DNA of 36,823 nucleotides, from the NCBI GenBank assembly GCA_027037615.1, contig JALVZN010000051.1:1-36823 (forward strand), read 5' to 3'. Source of the stretch: Caldifarciminota bacterium (GTDB lineage Bacteria > Hydrothermota > Hydrothermia > B15-G9). This document shows, in pieces, positions 24,560 to 30,621 of this stretch (its first letter is position 1; each line of letters begins with the position of its first letter). A program made the translations under genes and the position numbers. The notes beneath the pieces were generated by a model, which was not told the origin of the DNA, did not search any database, and worked only from the letters and a program-made list of their open reading frames with translations.

Positions 24560-25771
24560 TTACTTCACAATGATGAGCTTCCTGAGTGTGCCGTCCTTGC
24601 CGCGCCACAGGTAAACGCCGGGCTTTGCAAGCGACGATGTATCGCGTGCAACTACCCTTCCGGTGACATCAAAGACAGCAGGAGTGGGCTTTTGCGAAGG
24701 CAACGGCAATCCATGGACATCTTCCTCAACTGACTGAAGCCTTTTGTGGAATTCCAGAGAATCTATAACCGCGCCATCGGTCGCCCTGATGGCCTTGATG
24801 GACATGACAGTATCGGTAACAGTCACAAGCACATAGTGATAGCACGATGCTGAATATGCCACCCACGAGGCGGAGCCGGGTGTATAAAGCGGAGCGCCAC
24901 CGCCGCCTGTAACGATGTAAGTCACGCCATTTATGGGGACAGACCTCTGGTAAAAGTGGTTGTGGCCGTTGAAAACGATCGGCACGCCGTATGATTCCAA
25001 AATGTCACACCACGCAGCCCTGACATCGTAGTCGGAACCGTGCCCTCCAGCACTGTAAGGCGGACGATGGAAATAAACCACCACCCATTTTGACGAATCC
25101 TGAGTTATCTCCTCCAGCCTTTGTTGCAGGTATGTCCTTTGCGATGAATAGTCGATCGTCTCAGTGTTAAGTGCTATGAAAACCACATTTCCATACTCAA
25201 AGGTGTAATACCGTTCGTTTTCCGGAAGGTGGAAAAACTGGCGATAGATGTAGGAAGGGGTATCGTGATTGCCAATCGTGGGCATAATAGGCGAGTTGTG
25301 CAGAAGATCGGCCTCAATGGCGAAGAACTCATACCAATCGTCGATGTCGTTTCCATGTCCAACCATGTCGCCCGTATTGATGACAAAATCAGGATCCTGC
25401 TGTGCTATCGCATCGACAACCATTTGATGGGCAGCGGAATCTGACCTGTTATCGCCATAGACTACAAACCTGATGGTATCGGCGGACAGAGGAGCGGTGC
25501 GAAAACTGTAAATCGGTGTGGAATAACTGCTTCCAGCGACCTTGTAGATGTAGCGATGTCTCGGAGTTAGGCCTGTCAACTTAAAGGAATGGGCTATAAC
25601 TGAAGCTGTATCCCAGACCGTGTCAGTAAGCGACCCGACGCCATAAGCTATGAACCCCGAATCGGCAACAACGCTATACCACGATATGGTTATGGTGGTG
25701 GAGGTTGAATCCTCCCAATTCATATACGGCCCCAATCTCAACTGTATGAGGGCAAAGAAAACGGTTAACAT
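24560..25771 (-). CDS. Secreted purple-acid-phosphatase-like metallophosphoesterase with C-terminal sorting tail
   Basis: The 403-residue protein has a very short signal segment (MLTVFFALIQ), an N-terminal fibronectin III-like domain of the purple acid phosphatase type (TITISWYSVVADSG to YKVAGSS), and a complete metallophosphoesterase core: VYGDNRSD, VINTGDMVGHG, TIGNHD, VYFHRPPYS and FNGHNHFYQR. All metal ligands are present. The C-terminus (FDVTGRVVARDT to GVYLWRGKDGTLRKLIIVK) resembles the second half of a type IX sorting domain and lacks the usual YPNP opening. The start is supported by GAGGAGG 6 nt upstream. It converges with the DUF1015 gene, and the 99 bp between them hold only a short palindrome (ctcagctgag) and no clear terminator. 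Confidence 0.9.
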   Translation of the reverse strand: MLTVFFALIQLRLGPYMNWEDSTSTTITISWYSVVADSGFIAYGVGSLTDTVWDTASVIAHSFKLTGLTPRHRYIYKVAGSSYSTPIYSFRTAPLSADTIRFVVYGDNRSDSAAHQMVVDAIAQQDPDFVINTGDMVGHGNDIDDWYEFFAIEADLLHNSPIMPTIGNHDTPSYIYRQFFHLPENERYYTFEYGNVVFIALNTETIDYSSQRTYLQQRLEEITQDSSKWVVVYFHRPPYSAGGHGSDYDVRAAWCDILESYGVPIVFNGHNHFYQRSVPINGVTYIVTGGGGAPLYTPGSASWVAYSASCYHYVLVTVTDTVMSIKAIRATDGAVIDSLEFHKRLQSVEEDVHGLPLPSQKPTPAVFDVTGRVVARDTSSLAKPGVYLWRGKDGTLRKLIIVK

Positions 25772-25912: not shown

Positions 25913-25940
25913 TTGAAGTAGAAGCAAGTTACCTTATAAT
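25913..25940 (+). promoter_or_regulatory. Promoter of the four-gene membrane-protein operon
   Basis: TTGAAG (25913-25918) and a perfect TATAAT (25935-25940) are 16 nt apart. Predicted transcription starts near 25947, leaving a leader of about 50 nt with GGAGGG before the ATG at 25996. This also rules out the upstream in-frame TTG at 25945 as a start. Confidence 0.65.
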
Positions 25941-25995: not shown

Positions 25996-27099
25996 ATGAC
26001 AGGGGTCTTACTTATAGCATTTTTGATAGGGCAAAGTGCCCCCAATGGGTTTACTTTCAAGGCCTTTGACACTCCTAACGATCAGGGAAATTCTATCACG
26101 CTTGAATGGTCAGGGGATACAACTCCGATCAAGATAGTAAGGATATTCCGAGCCGACAATGCAGTAGGGCCATTCACCCCCATAAAGATACTCTTCGGAA
26201 ACATCCACTCCTACGATGACAAGGATGTGAAAGACGGCAAACCTTACTACTACAAAGTCATTCTGATTACAACGGAGAATGAGATCATATCGTCACCTGT
26301 TCTCGGGCCGGTAAGCAGCAAGCCGTCATGGTTCGACATGTCAAAACTCCCACTCTTCATCGTCCTCGCATTCTACATACTGGTGCTGCTTTATTACATC
26401 CTGTCCGCTCGAAAAGGGAAAGAGATCAAGTTAAGGCCAATAGCCGGGTTAAACGCAATAGACGAAGCGGTCGGCCGTGCGGCTGAGATGGGTCGCCCGA
26501 TACTTTTCACCACGGGCTTGCTCAGCATCGACAACCTCTCAACCATAGCGGCGCTTAACATCCTCGCACATGTGGCTAAGAAAGCAGCACAATACCAGAC
26601 GAGGCTGATCGTCCCGAACTACAACCCTGCCGTCTATACCGTCGCAGAAGCCATTGTCAGAGAATCATATCTTGCTGCTGGTCGTCCGGATCTTTTCAAC
26701 AGCGACGACATATTCTACATTTCCAGCCGTCAGTTCGGATATGCAGCTGGCGTCACAGGTGTCATGCTGCGTGAGAAAACAGCTGCACACTTCTTCATGG
26801 GGTACTACTTCGCAGAGGCTCTCCTGCTGACCGAGGTCGGCGCCTCAACTGGCGCAATTCAGGTCGCTGGAACCGACGCAATCACCCAGTTGCCGTTCTT
26901 CATCGTAACATGCGACTACACTCTGATCGGAGAAGAGCTCTACGCTGCAAGCGCTTATCTCTCGAAAGATGCACTGCTCGCAGCCACGATCAAAGGTCAG
27001 GACATCATGAAAGCGGTCATAATCGCTTTCCTAGTGATATTCTTCTTCGTTGCGATTGGCGCCGAAAGCCTGGCCATGAAAGTGGCCAACCTGTTATAA
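25996..27099 (+). CDS. Membrane protein with fibronectin-like N-domain and DUF6754-like core
   Basis: The ATG at 25996 follows GGAGGG by 6 nt and gives 367 residues. A signal peptide (MTGVLLIAFLIGQSA) leads into a fibronectin III-like extracytoplasmic domain (about 20-105, ITLEWSGDTTPIKIVRIFRA to YYYKVILIT). A membrane helix (PLFIVLAFYILVLLYYILS) is followed by a conserved cytoplasmic region: LRPIAGLNAIDEAVGRAAEM, GRPILFTTGLLSID, LIVPNYNPAVYTVAEAIVRE and FFMGYYFAEALLLTEVGA. A C-terminal helix (AVIIAFLVIFFFVAIGA) ends it. The central region resembles DUF6754. No function is known to me. It is the first gene of a four-gene operon. Confidence 0.82.
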   Translation: MTGVLLIAFLIGQSAPNGFTFKAFDTPNDQGNSITLEWSGDTTPIKIVRIFRADNAVGPFTPIKILFGNIHSYDDKDVKDGKPYYYKVILITTENEIISSPVLGPVSSKPSWFDMSKLPLFIVLAFYILVLLYYILSARKGKEIKLRPIAGLNAIDEAVGRAAEMGRPILFTTGLLSIDNLSTIAALNILAHVAKKAAQYQTRLIVPNYNPAVYTVAEAIVRESYLAAGRPDLFNSDDIFYISSRQFGYAAGVTGVMLREKTAAHFFMGYYFAEALLLTEVGASTGAIQVAGTDAITQLPFFIVTCDYTLIGEELYAASAYLSKDALLAATIKGQDIMKAVIIAFLVIFFFVAIGAESLAMKVANLL

Positions 27100-27113
27100 C
27101 AGGAGGTTAAACA

Positions 27114-27734
27114 ATGAAGCGATTTCTGAGTAGAACATTACCTCTTTTGATGGTGTTAATTTTCGGTGTTCTCGGTGCCATCCAGTATTTTGTGCCACAC
27201 AAAGTCTCACAGGTTTATTACAGAACCATTTTGACATGGGCCATCGGTGTATCGTCCATGGCTGTCATAATGGCTGCCATCAGCTTCTTGAGATACCACT
27301 ACAAAAAGATCATGAGCTCCGAGGGCGATACTCTCTATTCATCGATAGCCCTTGTGGCGTTCCTGGCAATGCTCGGATTTGGCGCATTCGGAACCGATAA
27401 GGGCAGCCTGTTCTATCAGTTCTATCAGAACATTTTCGTCCCGATAAACTCGACAATGTTCTCACTGTTAGCATTCTACATGGCATCCGCATCTTACAGG
27501 GCGTTCAGAGCCAAGACATTCGAAGCCGCTTTGCTGCTCACAGCGGCAATCATCGTCATACTCGGCACAACCCCCATCGGAAGCTCCATACTCCTCGACA
27601 AAGTCACGATGTGGATAATGAGCATACCAAATCTTGCACAGAAACGCGGCATATTGATAGGAGTCGGGCTTGGTGCTACGGCAACTTCTTTGAAAATAAT
27701 TCTCGGCATTGAAAAGAACTGGCTTGGAGGATGA
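27114..27734 (+). CDS. Polytopic membrane protein of unknown function (module gene 2)
   Basis: The 206-residue protein begins 14 nt after the DUF6754-like gene behind AGGAGGT. It has about five to six membrane helices (PLLMVLIFGVLGAIQYF, WAIGVSSMAVIMAAISFL, SIALVAFLAMLGFGAFG, INSTMFSLLAFYMASASY, AALLLTAAIIVILGT) and a glycine-rich C-terminal segment (GILIGVGLGATATSLKIILG). The central helix motif INSTMFSLLAFYMASASYRAFR looks conserved-type but matches no family I know. Its stop overlaps the region where the next gene starts. It is likely a structural partner of the neighbouring proteins in the inner membrane. Confidence 0.78.
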   Translation: MKRFLSRTLPLLMVLIFGVLGAIQYFVPHKVSQVYYRTILTWAIGVSSMAVIMAAISFLRYHYKKIMSSEGDTLYSSIALVAFLAMLGFGAFGTDKGSLFYQFYQNIFVPINSTMFSLLAFYMASASYRAFRAKTFEAALLLTAAIIVILGTTPIGSSILLDKVTMWIMSIPNLAQKRGILIGVGLGATATSLKIILGIEKNWLGG

Positions 27735-27736
27735 AA

Positions 27737-28609
27737 ATGGGCAAATTTGATATTTCCAACATAGACAGAAGATGGATTTACATAACAATTTTGTTGGGAG
27801 CCCTGCTTCCGCTATTCGTTCCGATAACATTCGCTCCGAAGATCTCGCCTGAAGTCAAAGCGGTTTACGACTACATCGATAAACTGCCTCCGGGATCAGT
27901 TATACTGCTCTCGTTCGACTACGGTCCGAGCACTTTGCCCGAAACCGAACCGATGGCGGAAGACATAATGAAACACGCCTTTATAAACGGCGTTCGTGTC
28001 ATCGGGATATCCCTCACCGAGGAAGGGGCTCTCCTCGCCCTTAAAGCTTACAACAATGTCGTCAAAGAATTTGAGAATTACGGAACGATAAAGGTCAATT
28101 ACGGCTACGATTTCGTGTTTCTCGGTTACAAAAGCGGTCGTCAGGCCGTCATCCTGAGCATAGGAGAGGATATAAGAAAAACATTTCCGACCGATTATCA
28201 GGGCACCAGCATTGATGACATCCCCATGATGTTCAATGTTAAGAACTACAAGGACATCTCGCTGGTAGTCGATATCTCCTCAACAAATACGCCCAATGAC
28301 TGGATAACTTACGCTTATTCAAGGTATAAAGTTCCGGTGGCCGTCGGGGTCACAGCGGTGCTTGCAGCAAACTATTATCCGTTCATTCAGACAGGGCAGA
28401 TCATAGGCTTGATCGGAGGCGTTAAAGGTGCGTCCGAATACGAGTACCTCGTAAACCAGAAAATTCAGTCCAACTGGGGGATGAAACCGAAACGAATGCC
28501 CGCAATGCGCAACATGTCAGCTCTTACTGTCGCAGAACTGTTGATAGTGCTGTTCATCATACTTGGTAACATCGGTTACTTTTCCCAAAAAGGCAATAAA
28601 AGGAGGTAG
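27737..28609 (+). CDS. Membrane-anchored protein with a large extracytoplasmic alpha/beta domain (module gene 3)
   Basis: The start at 27737 has GGAGG with 6 nt spacing. A second ATG at 27731 overlaps the previous stop but touches the Shine-Dalgarno sequence, so 27737 is preferred (290 residues). One N-terminal helix (IYITILLGALLPLFVPITF) is followed by a domain of about 220 residues with alternating strands and helices (GSVILLSFDYGPSTLPETEP, NGVRVIGISLTEEGALLALK, VNYGYDFVFLGYKSGRQAV, ISLVVDISSTNTPNDWITY, QIIGLIGGVKGASEYEYLV). A C-terminal helix (VAELLIVLFIILGNIGYF) closes it. The fold looks Rossmann-like, as in substrate-binding or flavodoxin-type domains. I recognise no family. It is in one operon with two membrane partners upstream and one downstream. 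Confidence 0.78.
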   Translation: MGKFDISNIDRRWIYITILLGALLPLFVPITFAPKISPEVKAVYDYIDKLPPGSVILLSFDYGPSTLPETEPMAEDIMKHAFINGVRVIGISLTEEGALLALKAYNNVVKEFENYGTIKVNYGYDFVFLGYKSGRQAVILSIGEDIRKTFPTDYQGTSIDDIPMMFNVKNYKDISLVVDISSTNTPNDWITYAYSRYKVPVAVGVTAVLAANYYPFIQTGQIIGLIGGVKGASEYEYLVNQKIQSNWGMKPKRMPAMRNMSALTVAELLIVLFIILGNIGYFSQKGNKRR

Positions 28610-28615
28610 CCAGTC

Positions 28616-29248
28616 ATGGCTATAAGCTCATCGATATGGGTATGGATAGCAGCATTTTTGACACTGGCAGTATTTTCATTCCTTTACAAAGACAACATCA
28701 TTTACAAAATGGTCGAAGCACTTTTTGTGGGAGTTAGTGCTGGATATTCAATCGTCATCATATTGAAACATTCCTTTGTGCCAAATATCTGGACGCCGCT
28801 TTTCGTCAGCCACAACCTTCTGTATCTGATACCGTTCCTGCTTGGACTTCTTTTCTTTGCAATGCTATCTCGGAAAACTGCTTATCTAACCCATATTCCT
28901 TTCGCTTTCCTGATCGGAAGCGGTGCCGGTTTTGCGCTGCCGCTTGTGTTTCAGACAAATGTCATGGCTCAGGTGAAAGGCACAATGCTGTTCGCTCCAA
29001 GTCACTACTCATCATTGGGAGCCTTCGTCAACGCTCTCATAATCTTCATCGGGGTTCTGACAGTGCTGTTCTATTTCTTTTTCTCAAGGGGCGAGAAAAC
29101 TAACAGGAGCATCATAGTCAAGACCGGGATAGCCTTCATCATGGTGGGATTTGGAGCATCGTTCGGTTACACGGTGATGGCCCGTCTATCCCTACTCGTG
29201 GGAAGGCTATACTTCTTATTTGGGACATGGCTGGGAATCCTTCATTGA
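28616..29248 (+). CDS. Polytopic membrane protein of unknown function (module gene 4)
   Basis: The 210-residue protein has AAGGAGGT 8 nt before its ATG and starts 6 nt after gene 3. It has about six membrane helices: SIWVWIAAFLTLAVFSFLY, VEALFVGVSAGYSIVIIL, LLYLIPFLLGLLFFAML, IPFAFLIGSGAGFALPLVF, FVNALIIFIGVLTVLFYFFF and KTGIAFIMVGFGASFGYTV. The segment KMVEALFVGVSAGYSIV resembles the N-terminal region of other uncharacterised membrane proteins of anaerobes. No enzyme motif is visible. It ends the operon 64 nt before the sigma-54-type promoter of the pilin gene, with no terminator seen between. Confidence 0.77.
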   Translation: MAISSSIWVWIAAFLTLAVFSFLYKDNIIYKMVEALFVGVSAGYSIVIILKHSFVPNIWTPLFVSHNLLYLIPFLLGLLFFAMLSRKTAYLTHIPFAFLIGSGAGFALPLVFQTNVMAQVKGTMLFAPSHYSSLGAFVNALIIFIGVLTVLFYFFFSRGEKTNRSIIVKTGIAFIMVGFGASFGYTVMARLSLLVGRLYFLFGTWLGILH

Positions 29249-29381: not shown

Positions 29382-29897
29382 ATGAGGCGTAAAGGCTTTA
29401 CGCTCATAGAGCTTATGATCGTGGTGGCAATCATAGCCATCCTGGCGTCAATCGCCATACCGCAGTACAAGAAGTTCCAGCTCAAAGCCAAGACATCTGA
29501 GGCTAAGAGCAATATCGGCGCAATCAGGAGCGCTGAGGAGACATACTCCGCTGAGCACGATGTGTATCTGAAAGCACAGGCGAGTCCGGGCACGGTGCCG
29601 GGTGCTCAGGCTGCTGATTGGCCTGCCGATGCCGGTGGATTTGATGACATAGGCTTCAAACCTGCTGGCAAAGTTTATTACAGCTACTGGGTAGGTGAAG
29701 ACACAACAACTGCTAATACCAACGACAATGGAACTGTTGTGGCTAATGATAGTGTCAACATCTATATCATGGCAGAAGGCGACCTTGACGAGAACGGCGG
29801 AGCTGGTGAGGCCCCCGCACTCAATGCTAACGATGGTGTGTTCTATGCAAGCGACGAAGATCCCAAGATTAACGATATGCATCCGGGCAAATTCTAA
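29382..29897 (+). CDS. Type IV pilin-like protein (prepilin, PilA/GspG type)
   Basis: The ATG at 29382 has AGGAGGT 7 nt upstream and gives 171 residues. The N-terminus [20 protein letters not shown] is a textbook class III signal: prepilin peptidase cuts after Gly5, Phe becomes residue 1 and Glu10 becomes the essential Glu5. A hydrophobic helix to about residue 28 is followed by [26 protein letters not shown], typical of pilins and pseudopilins. The C-terminal half is unusual. It is rich in Asp, Asn, Gly and Ala (for example [20 protein letters not shown]), with no cysteines and no obvious disulfide loop. It may form fibres for twitching, adhesion or electron transfer, or act in secretion. 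The sigma-54 promoter favours PilR-type control of a true pilin. It is monocistronic, ending in a strong terminator. Confidence 0.93.
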
Positions 29898-29967: not shown

Positions 29968-30621
29968 GTGTTTACGGTGTGTTTTCGTGGTACTTCCCCA
30001 TCTCAAGTCCCTCCAGGACAAGTTGTAAACATCTCAAAATTCAAGTCCCTGCCCTTTGTGGATTTCGATCTCATCCCGATTGAACAGGCGAAACGCAGGC
30101 TTTCGAGCCTCAGAAGGCCGATCATCGGCATATTCGATGGCGGCAGCGTGCCACACCGCATCTGGCCATACGACAGGGTGTTACGGCTGATAAAAAGGTT
30201 GAACGAAAGGGGCTACTCGGTGGTCGTTGTCGGCGGCAGAATCGAATTACCGCTATCGCAGATTATCAAAAAGGAGCTCAAACTCCCGAACGACCGTTTC
30301 CTTGACCTCATCGGAAAAACCAGTCTGTCGGAGACCGCGGCCGTCCTAAGTCAATTAGACTTACTGATTTCAACGGATTCATCTCTGCTCCATCTGGGCT
30401 ATGCCGTTGAAACAAAAACAGTTGCATTGTTTGGCCCCGGAATACCCGAAAAATGGGCTCCAAGAGGGCATGGACACATCGTGATTCGCAAAAATCTGCC
30501 GTGTAGCCCGTGCACGAAGTTCGGCTATACGCCTGCCTGCCCCTACGGTTACAGGTGCATGAAGGAGATAAAGGTGGACGATGTGATGGCCGGCGTCGAA
30601 AAGGCGATGAAAGGGGAATAG
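29968..30621 (+). CDS. Glycosyltransferase family 9 (heptosyltransferase-type), C-terminal half only
   Basis: The 217-residue frame contains the C-terminal nucleotide-sugar-binding half of a GT9 heptosyltransferase: RPIIGIFDGGSVPHRIWPYD, YSVVVVGGRIELPL, ISTDSSLLHLGYAVETKTVA, LFGPGIPEKWAPRG and a Cys-rich C-terminus (LPCSPCTKFG, CPYGYRC). Full GT9 enzymes have about 330-350 residues; the N-terminal acceptor-binding domain is missing. The frame opens with a GTG at 29968 that has no Shine-Dalgarno sequence and lies only about 10 nt after the pilin terminator. The first 30 residues (FRGTSPSQVPPG) do not look like a normal start. It may be a truncated remnant or a split enzyme whose partner is elsewhere. 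GmhA at 5034 shows that a heptose pathway exists. Activity alone is doubtful. Confidence 0.75.
   Translation: MFTVCFRGTSPSQVPPGQVVNISKFKSLPFVDFDLIPIEQAKRRLSSLRRPIIGIFDGGSVPHRIWPYDRVLRLIKRLNERGYSVVVVGGRIELPLSQIIKKELKLPNDRFLDLIGKTSLSETAAVLSQLDLLISTDSSLLHLGYAVETKTVALFGPGIPEKWAPRGHGHIVIRKNLPCSPCTKFGYTPACPYGYRCMKEIKVDDVMAGVEKAMKGE

Follow-up and report, generated by a model that had tools for sequence, protein, structure and literature searches.

The window, a stretch of 36,823 nucleotides, is a contig from the metagenome-assembled genome of a WOR-3 bacterium (NCBI: Caldifarciminota). An ORF check of the window located four consecutive, tightly packed open reading frames, all on the plus strand, called here A, B, C and D (Table 1). 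Gene A starts with an ATG codon, and the motif GGAGGG is located 6–12 nt upstream of it. The A–B intergenic gap is 14 nt and the C–D gap is 6 nt; gene C has two candidate starts, at 27731 (4-nt overlap with B) or at 27737 (2-nt gap), and the second is more likely because of its better spacing from GGAGG. With this start, the gaps of 2–14 nt given in the first-pass annotation of this DNA are correct. The same annotation had proposed that one promoter with a perfect -10 element serves the four genes. TATAAT is present at 25935–25940, with TTGAAG 16 nt upstream; as similar sites are expected by chance in the region (10 observed, compared with 6.4 ± 2.5 expected), an operon promoter at this position is graded as plausible.

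Table 1. Features of the ABCD module, in coordinates of the window
Feature	Position	Strand	Evidence
Promoter-like site TTGAAG-N16-TATAAT	25913..25940	+	Consensus scan, 10/12 matches
Gene A, DUF6754 protein, 367 aa	25996..27099	+	PF20539, E 3e-105
A, extracytoplasmic fibronectin-III-like domain, residues ~16-108	26041..26319	+	PDB profiles, Foldseek, modelled beta strands
A, transmembrane helix 115-139, positive charges after helix	26338..26412	+	Model, family hydropathy
A, predicted cytoplasmic Rossmann-like (beta/alpha)6 domain, residues 150-323	26443..26964	+	AlphaFold2 model
A, C-terminal transmembrane helix 326-355	26971..27060	+	Model, family hydropathy
Gene B, polytopic membrane protein, 206 aa	27114..27734	+	Conserved beside A in the phylum; no family or PDB match
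Gene C, membrane-anchored, predicted periplasmic Rossmann-like domain	27731..28609	+	AlphaFold2 pLDDT 95.3, charge pattern
Gene D, polytopic membrane protein, 210 aa	28616..29248	+	44-member alignment; no significant family or PDB match

The pilin gene that had been noted downstream is indeed present (29382–29897), 133 nt after the module and with its own promoter-like site. It adjoins the module in this genus only, so the linkage is not conserved; a role in the module is unsupported, and both the pilin as a fifth component and the module as part of a type IV pilus system were rejected. Two other genes of the window were recorded. On the minus strand, divergent from the operon, positions 24560–25771 encode a purple-acid-phosphatase-like metallophosphoesterase with a fibronectin-III (FN3)-like stretch. 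On the plus strand, positions 29968–30621 carry a glycosyltransferase-9 (heptosyltransferase) gene that covers just the second part of the family profile and is possibly truncated.

Protein A is a full-length member of the DUF6754 family. Its residues 109–355 match Pfam PF20539 with E 3e-105 and 351 bits (cut-off 27), and the match was found in all 52 members of the A family. No function has been assigned to the DUF6754 family, and neither DUF6754 nor PF20539 is named in the literature searched. In the AlphaFold2 model of A (mean pLDDT 91.9) an FN3-like domain comes first, and two transmembrane helices then flank a (beta/alpha)6 domain. The FN3-like domain gave profile matches to titin and to Fn3-like chains, in agreement with Foldseek, where most matches of A were to FN3 domains. 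The description of A as a DUF6754-like protein with a fibronectin-like outer domain was thus correct. The outer domain shares with fibronectin type III the fold and a weak sequence similarity; however, this is a common adaptor fold, uninformative on function, and it is missing from some A relatives. Protein A is tightly conserved and has many invariant residues, and its conserved residues are not enriched at strand ends, where Rossmann folds bind ligands. A few genomes (G043, G045 and G059) have additional, solitary A genes, and A may therefore also act alone.

No credible Pfam or NCBIfam family was found for B, C or D, and B and D had no credible match in the PDB either. In an alignment of 44 members of the D family, 19 residues are invariant. 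In the AlphaFold2 model of C (pLDDT 95.3), a transmembrane helix precedes a (beta/alpha)6 domain, and a long helix forms the C terminus; compared with the PDB and with viral models, C gave generic Rossmann-type fold matches only, and its conserved residues are slightly enriched at strand ends. The Rossmann-like domains of A and C have the same order of helices and strands. Homology between them is not supported, as the profile scores (14–21) overlap those of unrelated decoys (10–24). From the positive-inside charge pattern, the two domains are predicted to stand on opposite faces of the membrane, that of A in the cytoplasm and that of C in the periplasm. The source genome encodes Omp85, hence the organism is diderm; the one reported isolate of the WOR-3 phylum, sy37, has inner and outer membranes, few ABC transporters, and about half of its genes annotated as hypothetical (PMC12285271).

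These folds raise the question of whether ABCD is a membrane-bound enzyme for redox, lipid or glycan chemistry, acting through one of the Rossmann-like domains or through both. Nucleotide-binding and sugar-nucleotide enzymes are among the weak best Foldseek matches of C and A, and the many invariant residues of A would fit a catalytic protein; but the matches are generic, their TM-scores are low (target-side values reach about 0.5 at most), and no catalytic or nucleotide-binding motif was found in the proteins. We regard an enzyme as quite improbable.

Nearly all sequenced members of WOR-3 keep the ABCD order. From 60 regions around DUF6754 hits we identified 63 contiguous modules with this order across the phylum, a count that includes the window and its sister contig; the median gaps within modules are 6, -4 and -4 nt. 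About 20 further complete modules were obtained from 20 more regions, which represent unsampled families and new genera of sampled families. With the 63 modules, the four-gene arrangement first described for the window is beyond chance. In a scan of named genomes with one of the proteins, only a near-identical WOR-3 contig was matched.

Among 60 relatives, A was present in 55 genomes and B, C and D in 57 each. Three genomes lack all four genes (G042, G044 and G053), and two lack A only (G036 and G055), in which B–D run off contig ends, with B fragments at these ends. The copy numbers of the four genes are equal in 49 of the 60 genomes, with between-gene correlations of 0.88–0.97. In a phylum-wide sample, DUF6754 was found in 116 of 120 genomes; it is present in one to seven copies per genome, mostly in complete four-gene sets. 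The source genome has three ABCD sets, that of the window and two in tandem on another contig (C107). Both tandem sets are complete but for the first A, which the contig end truncates, and an ARPP-1 gene stands between them. In one genome that has intact copies elsewhere, a shortened D and a 60-residue C remnant (L100:5568–6366) are apparently a decaying module.

The distance matrices of A, B, C and D correlate pairwise with r values of 0.72–0.85, compared with 0.143 for the best of 500 permutations; this correlation reflects a shared history that includes the species phylogeny, and it supports the integrity of the module rather than contact between its proteins. Stronger evidence than gene order is provided by family f9 (genera g13 and g17), in which A and B are together while C and D are elsewhere, and in which one copy of each gene is nevertheless retained; of the eight f9 genomes, two (G026 and G035) have C only as a fragment at a contig end. 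In most f9 genomes a small coiled-coil, lipoprotein-like gene (about 85 aa) lies directly upstream of D (L087–L099). In genus g17, a gene for a complex I chain-3 (NuoA-like) protein is just upstream of the unlinked D (L090:5569–5940 and L094:6135–6506), with no other complex I genes adjoining.

Conserved neighbourhood could also result from slow turnover of gene order, the four proteins being mere neighbours that form no complex. Lipoate ligase and signal peptidase II genes recur near the module as well, but ABCD persists while other neighbours change, the copy numbers match, and f9 keeps all four genes after their unlinking, which makes this explanation highly improbable. On these sequence-based grounds, namely the conserved operon, the presence of either all four genes or none, equal copy numbers, co-evolution, and joint retention in f9, A–D are very probably subunits of one dedicated inner-membrane complex, as the first-pass annotation had suggested from spacing and topologies. 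The two findings that would have spoken against it, a lack of co-occurrence in other genomes or membership of each gene in a separate known pathway, were not encountered.

In a tree built from concatenated modules, type I (28 modules, support 0.93) is distinct from type II (34 modules, with a low support of 0.23), to which the module of the window belongs. Types I and II are two ancient versions of the module. A type II module is followed by a type I module in tandem in eight loci (L004, L026, L067, L070, L071, L077, L083 and L176), of which L004 and L026 represent a single array, shared by two close genomes; II–I tandems occur in several families, and II–II tandems in other loci.

No neighbour of ABCD is constant, hence the module is self-contained. 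Recurrent but varying neighbours are signal peptidase II, lipoate-protein ligase, ARPP-1, and MutL together with a barrel-sandwich (RnfC_N-like) protein. The latter two are unsupported as obligate partners, as they are present in G044, which has no ABCD; the pair adjoins ABCD only in families f15 and f20, and in one genus it is absent along with ABCD. The gene for the MutL (GlmL-like) ATPase is in itself near-universal in WOR-3 (L115–L121, L130 and L132), where it often comes after the glycine-cleavage gene GcvP2 and a small conserved gene. Three genomes have a second, divergent MutL (L137, L138 and L139), always followed by its own divergent RnfC_N-like copy, and since they are consecutive in all three the divergent copies form a pair.

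Another recurrent cluster, found downstream of ABCD in seven loci (L163, L169, L171, L176, L071, L077 and L065), encodes a DUF4388 protein, two companions without known family and two small membrane proteins (about 122 and 116 aa); in those stretches that extend far enough, it continues with ExbB, ExbD, ExbD and TonB. The presence of the DUF4388 protein and its two companions of unknown fold after several modules would suit an envelope sensor, in which C and the FN3-like domain detect an outside ligand, a peptide or the state of the envelope, and the cytoplasmic domain of A signals to cytosolic partners. An FN3-like outer domain and the position of domains on both faces would agree with this function; however, no kinase, cyclase or DNA-binding partner is common to the modules, and two large polytopic subunits exceed the needs of a sensor, which we consider unlikely.

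ExbB–ExbD–TonB genes adjoin ABCD genes in several arrangements in families f16, f18, f20, f24 and f30, and one f9 genome has ExbB–ExbD–ExbD–TonB after its unlinked C. Within 10 kb of a module there are about 8 ExbB hits where about 2.8 are expected, a modest excess in which related genomes are counted separately and for which the expectation is rough. ABCD might accordingly be an accessory of this proton-motive-force motor, with a part in trafficking towards or away from the outer membrane. Such a function appears improbable, since these genes are missing beside the majority of modules, ExbB copy number does not track that of ABCD, and all three ABCD-less genomes have ExbB. ABCD and ExbB/ExbD/TonB thus share a gene cluster in a minority of cases, but there is no homology between ExbB, ExbD or TonB and A–D, and the two systems occur independently.

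The module was compared with other known systems. None of the four proteins had a PADLOC match to anti-phage defence, and no match was found on phages, plasmids or viral contigs; a defence function and a mobile or viral module were both rejected. ABC and TRAP solute transporters with an extracytoplasmic binding domain resemble ABCD in having a periplasmic alpha/beta domain and polytopic subunits, but ABCD has no ATPase, no DctM/DctQ-like subunits and no match to a binding-protein family. No ATPase is encoded in the operon, nor is an ABC ATPase among the 25 commonest neighbour Pfam families, and B and D match no known permease family in Pfam, NCBIfam or the PDB, as would be expected of TRAP or other secondary transporters. 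Searches with Pfam, NCBIfam and PDB profiles detected neither a transporter family nor an ion-binding or ligand motif in A–D. The initial observation that none of the four proteins carries a recognised transporter or enzyme motif thus held, and none of them could be placed in a known pathway. Such a complex is not mentioned in the WOR-3 literature searched. In conclusion, judged on Pfam, NCBIfam, PADLOC, the PDB and the searched literature, ABCD belongs to no known kind that we could find.

The module combines two polytopic subunits with binding-type folds on either side of the membrane and has no ATPase, and ABC transporters are few in the isolate of the phylum. From this layout we propose tentatively that ABCD is a solute transporter of the inner membrane or a gated channel, with binding domains facing both sides. 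A–D would assemble as a stoichiometric complex, in which B and D may form the membrane-embedded core and path, C would hold its Rossmann-like domain in the periplasm, and A would place its FN3-like domain outside and its Rossmann-like domain in the cytoplasm. The complex could move or gate a small polar ligand across the inner membrane. This ligand would be bound on the outer face by C, with the FN3-like domain of A, and then bound, released or sensed on the inner face by the cytoplasmic domain of A; as no ATPase is encoded with the module, an ion gradient is proposed to drive the complex. Types I and II, which are often in tandem, may have different ligands or may work as a pair. It is conceivable, though rather doubtful, that ABCD represents a class of inner-membrane machines for transport or coupling that has not been described before, in which Rossmann-like domains stand on each face of the membrane and the two ancient versions act as a tandem pair; in a phylum with an isolate poor in ABC transporters, it would replace these in part.

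Whatever its activity, ABCD appears to be a previously undescribed four-protein inner-membrane machine: three of its proteins are outside any family found, and the fourth is known only as DUF6754, a family whose full-length member A has B, C and D as constant partners. The gene set defines the exact four chains to model, co-express and assay, and its conservation marks an important function of the envelope in this deep-branching phylum.
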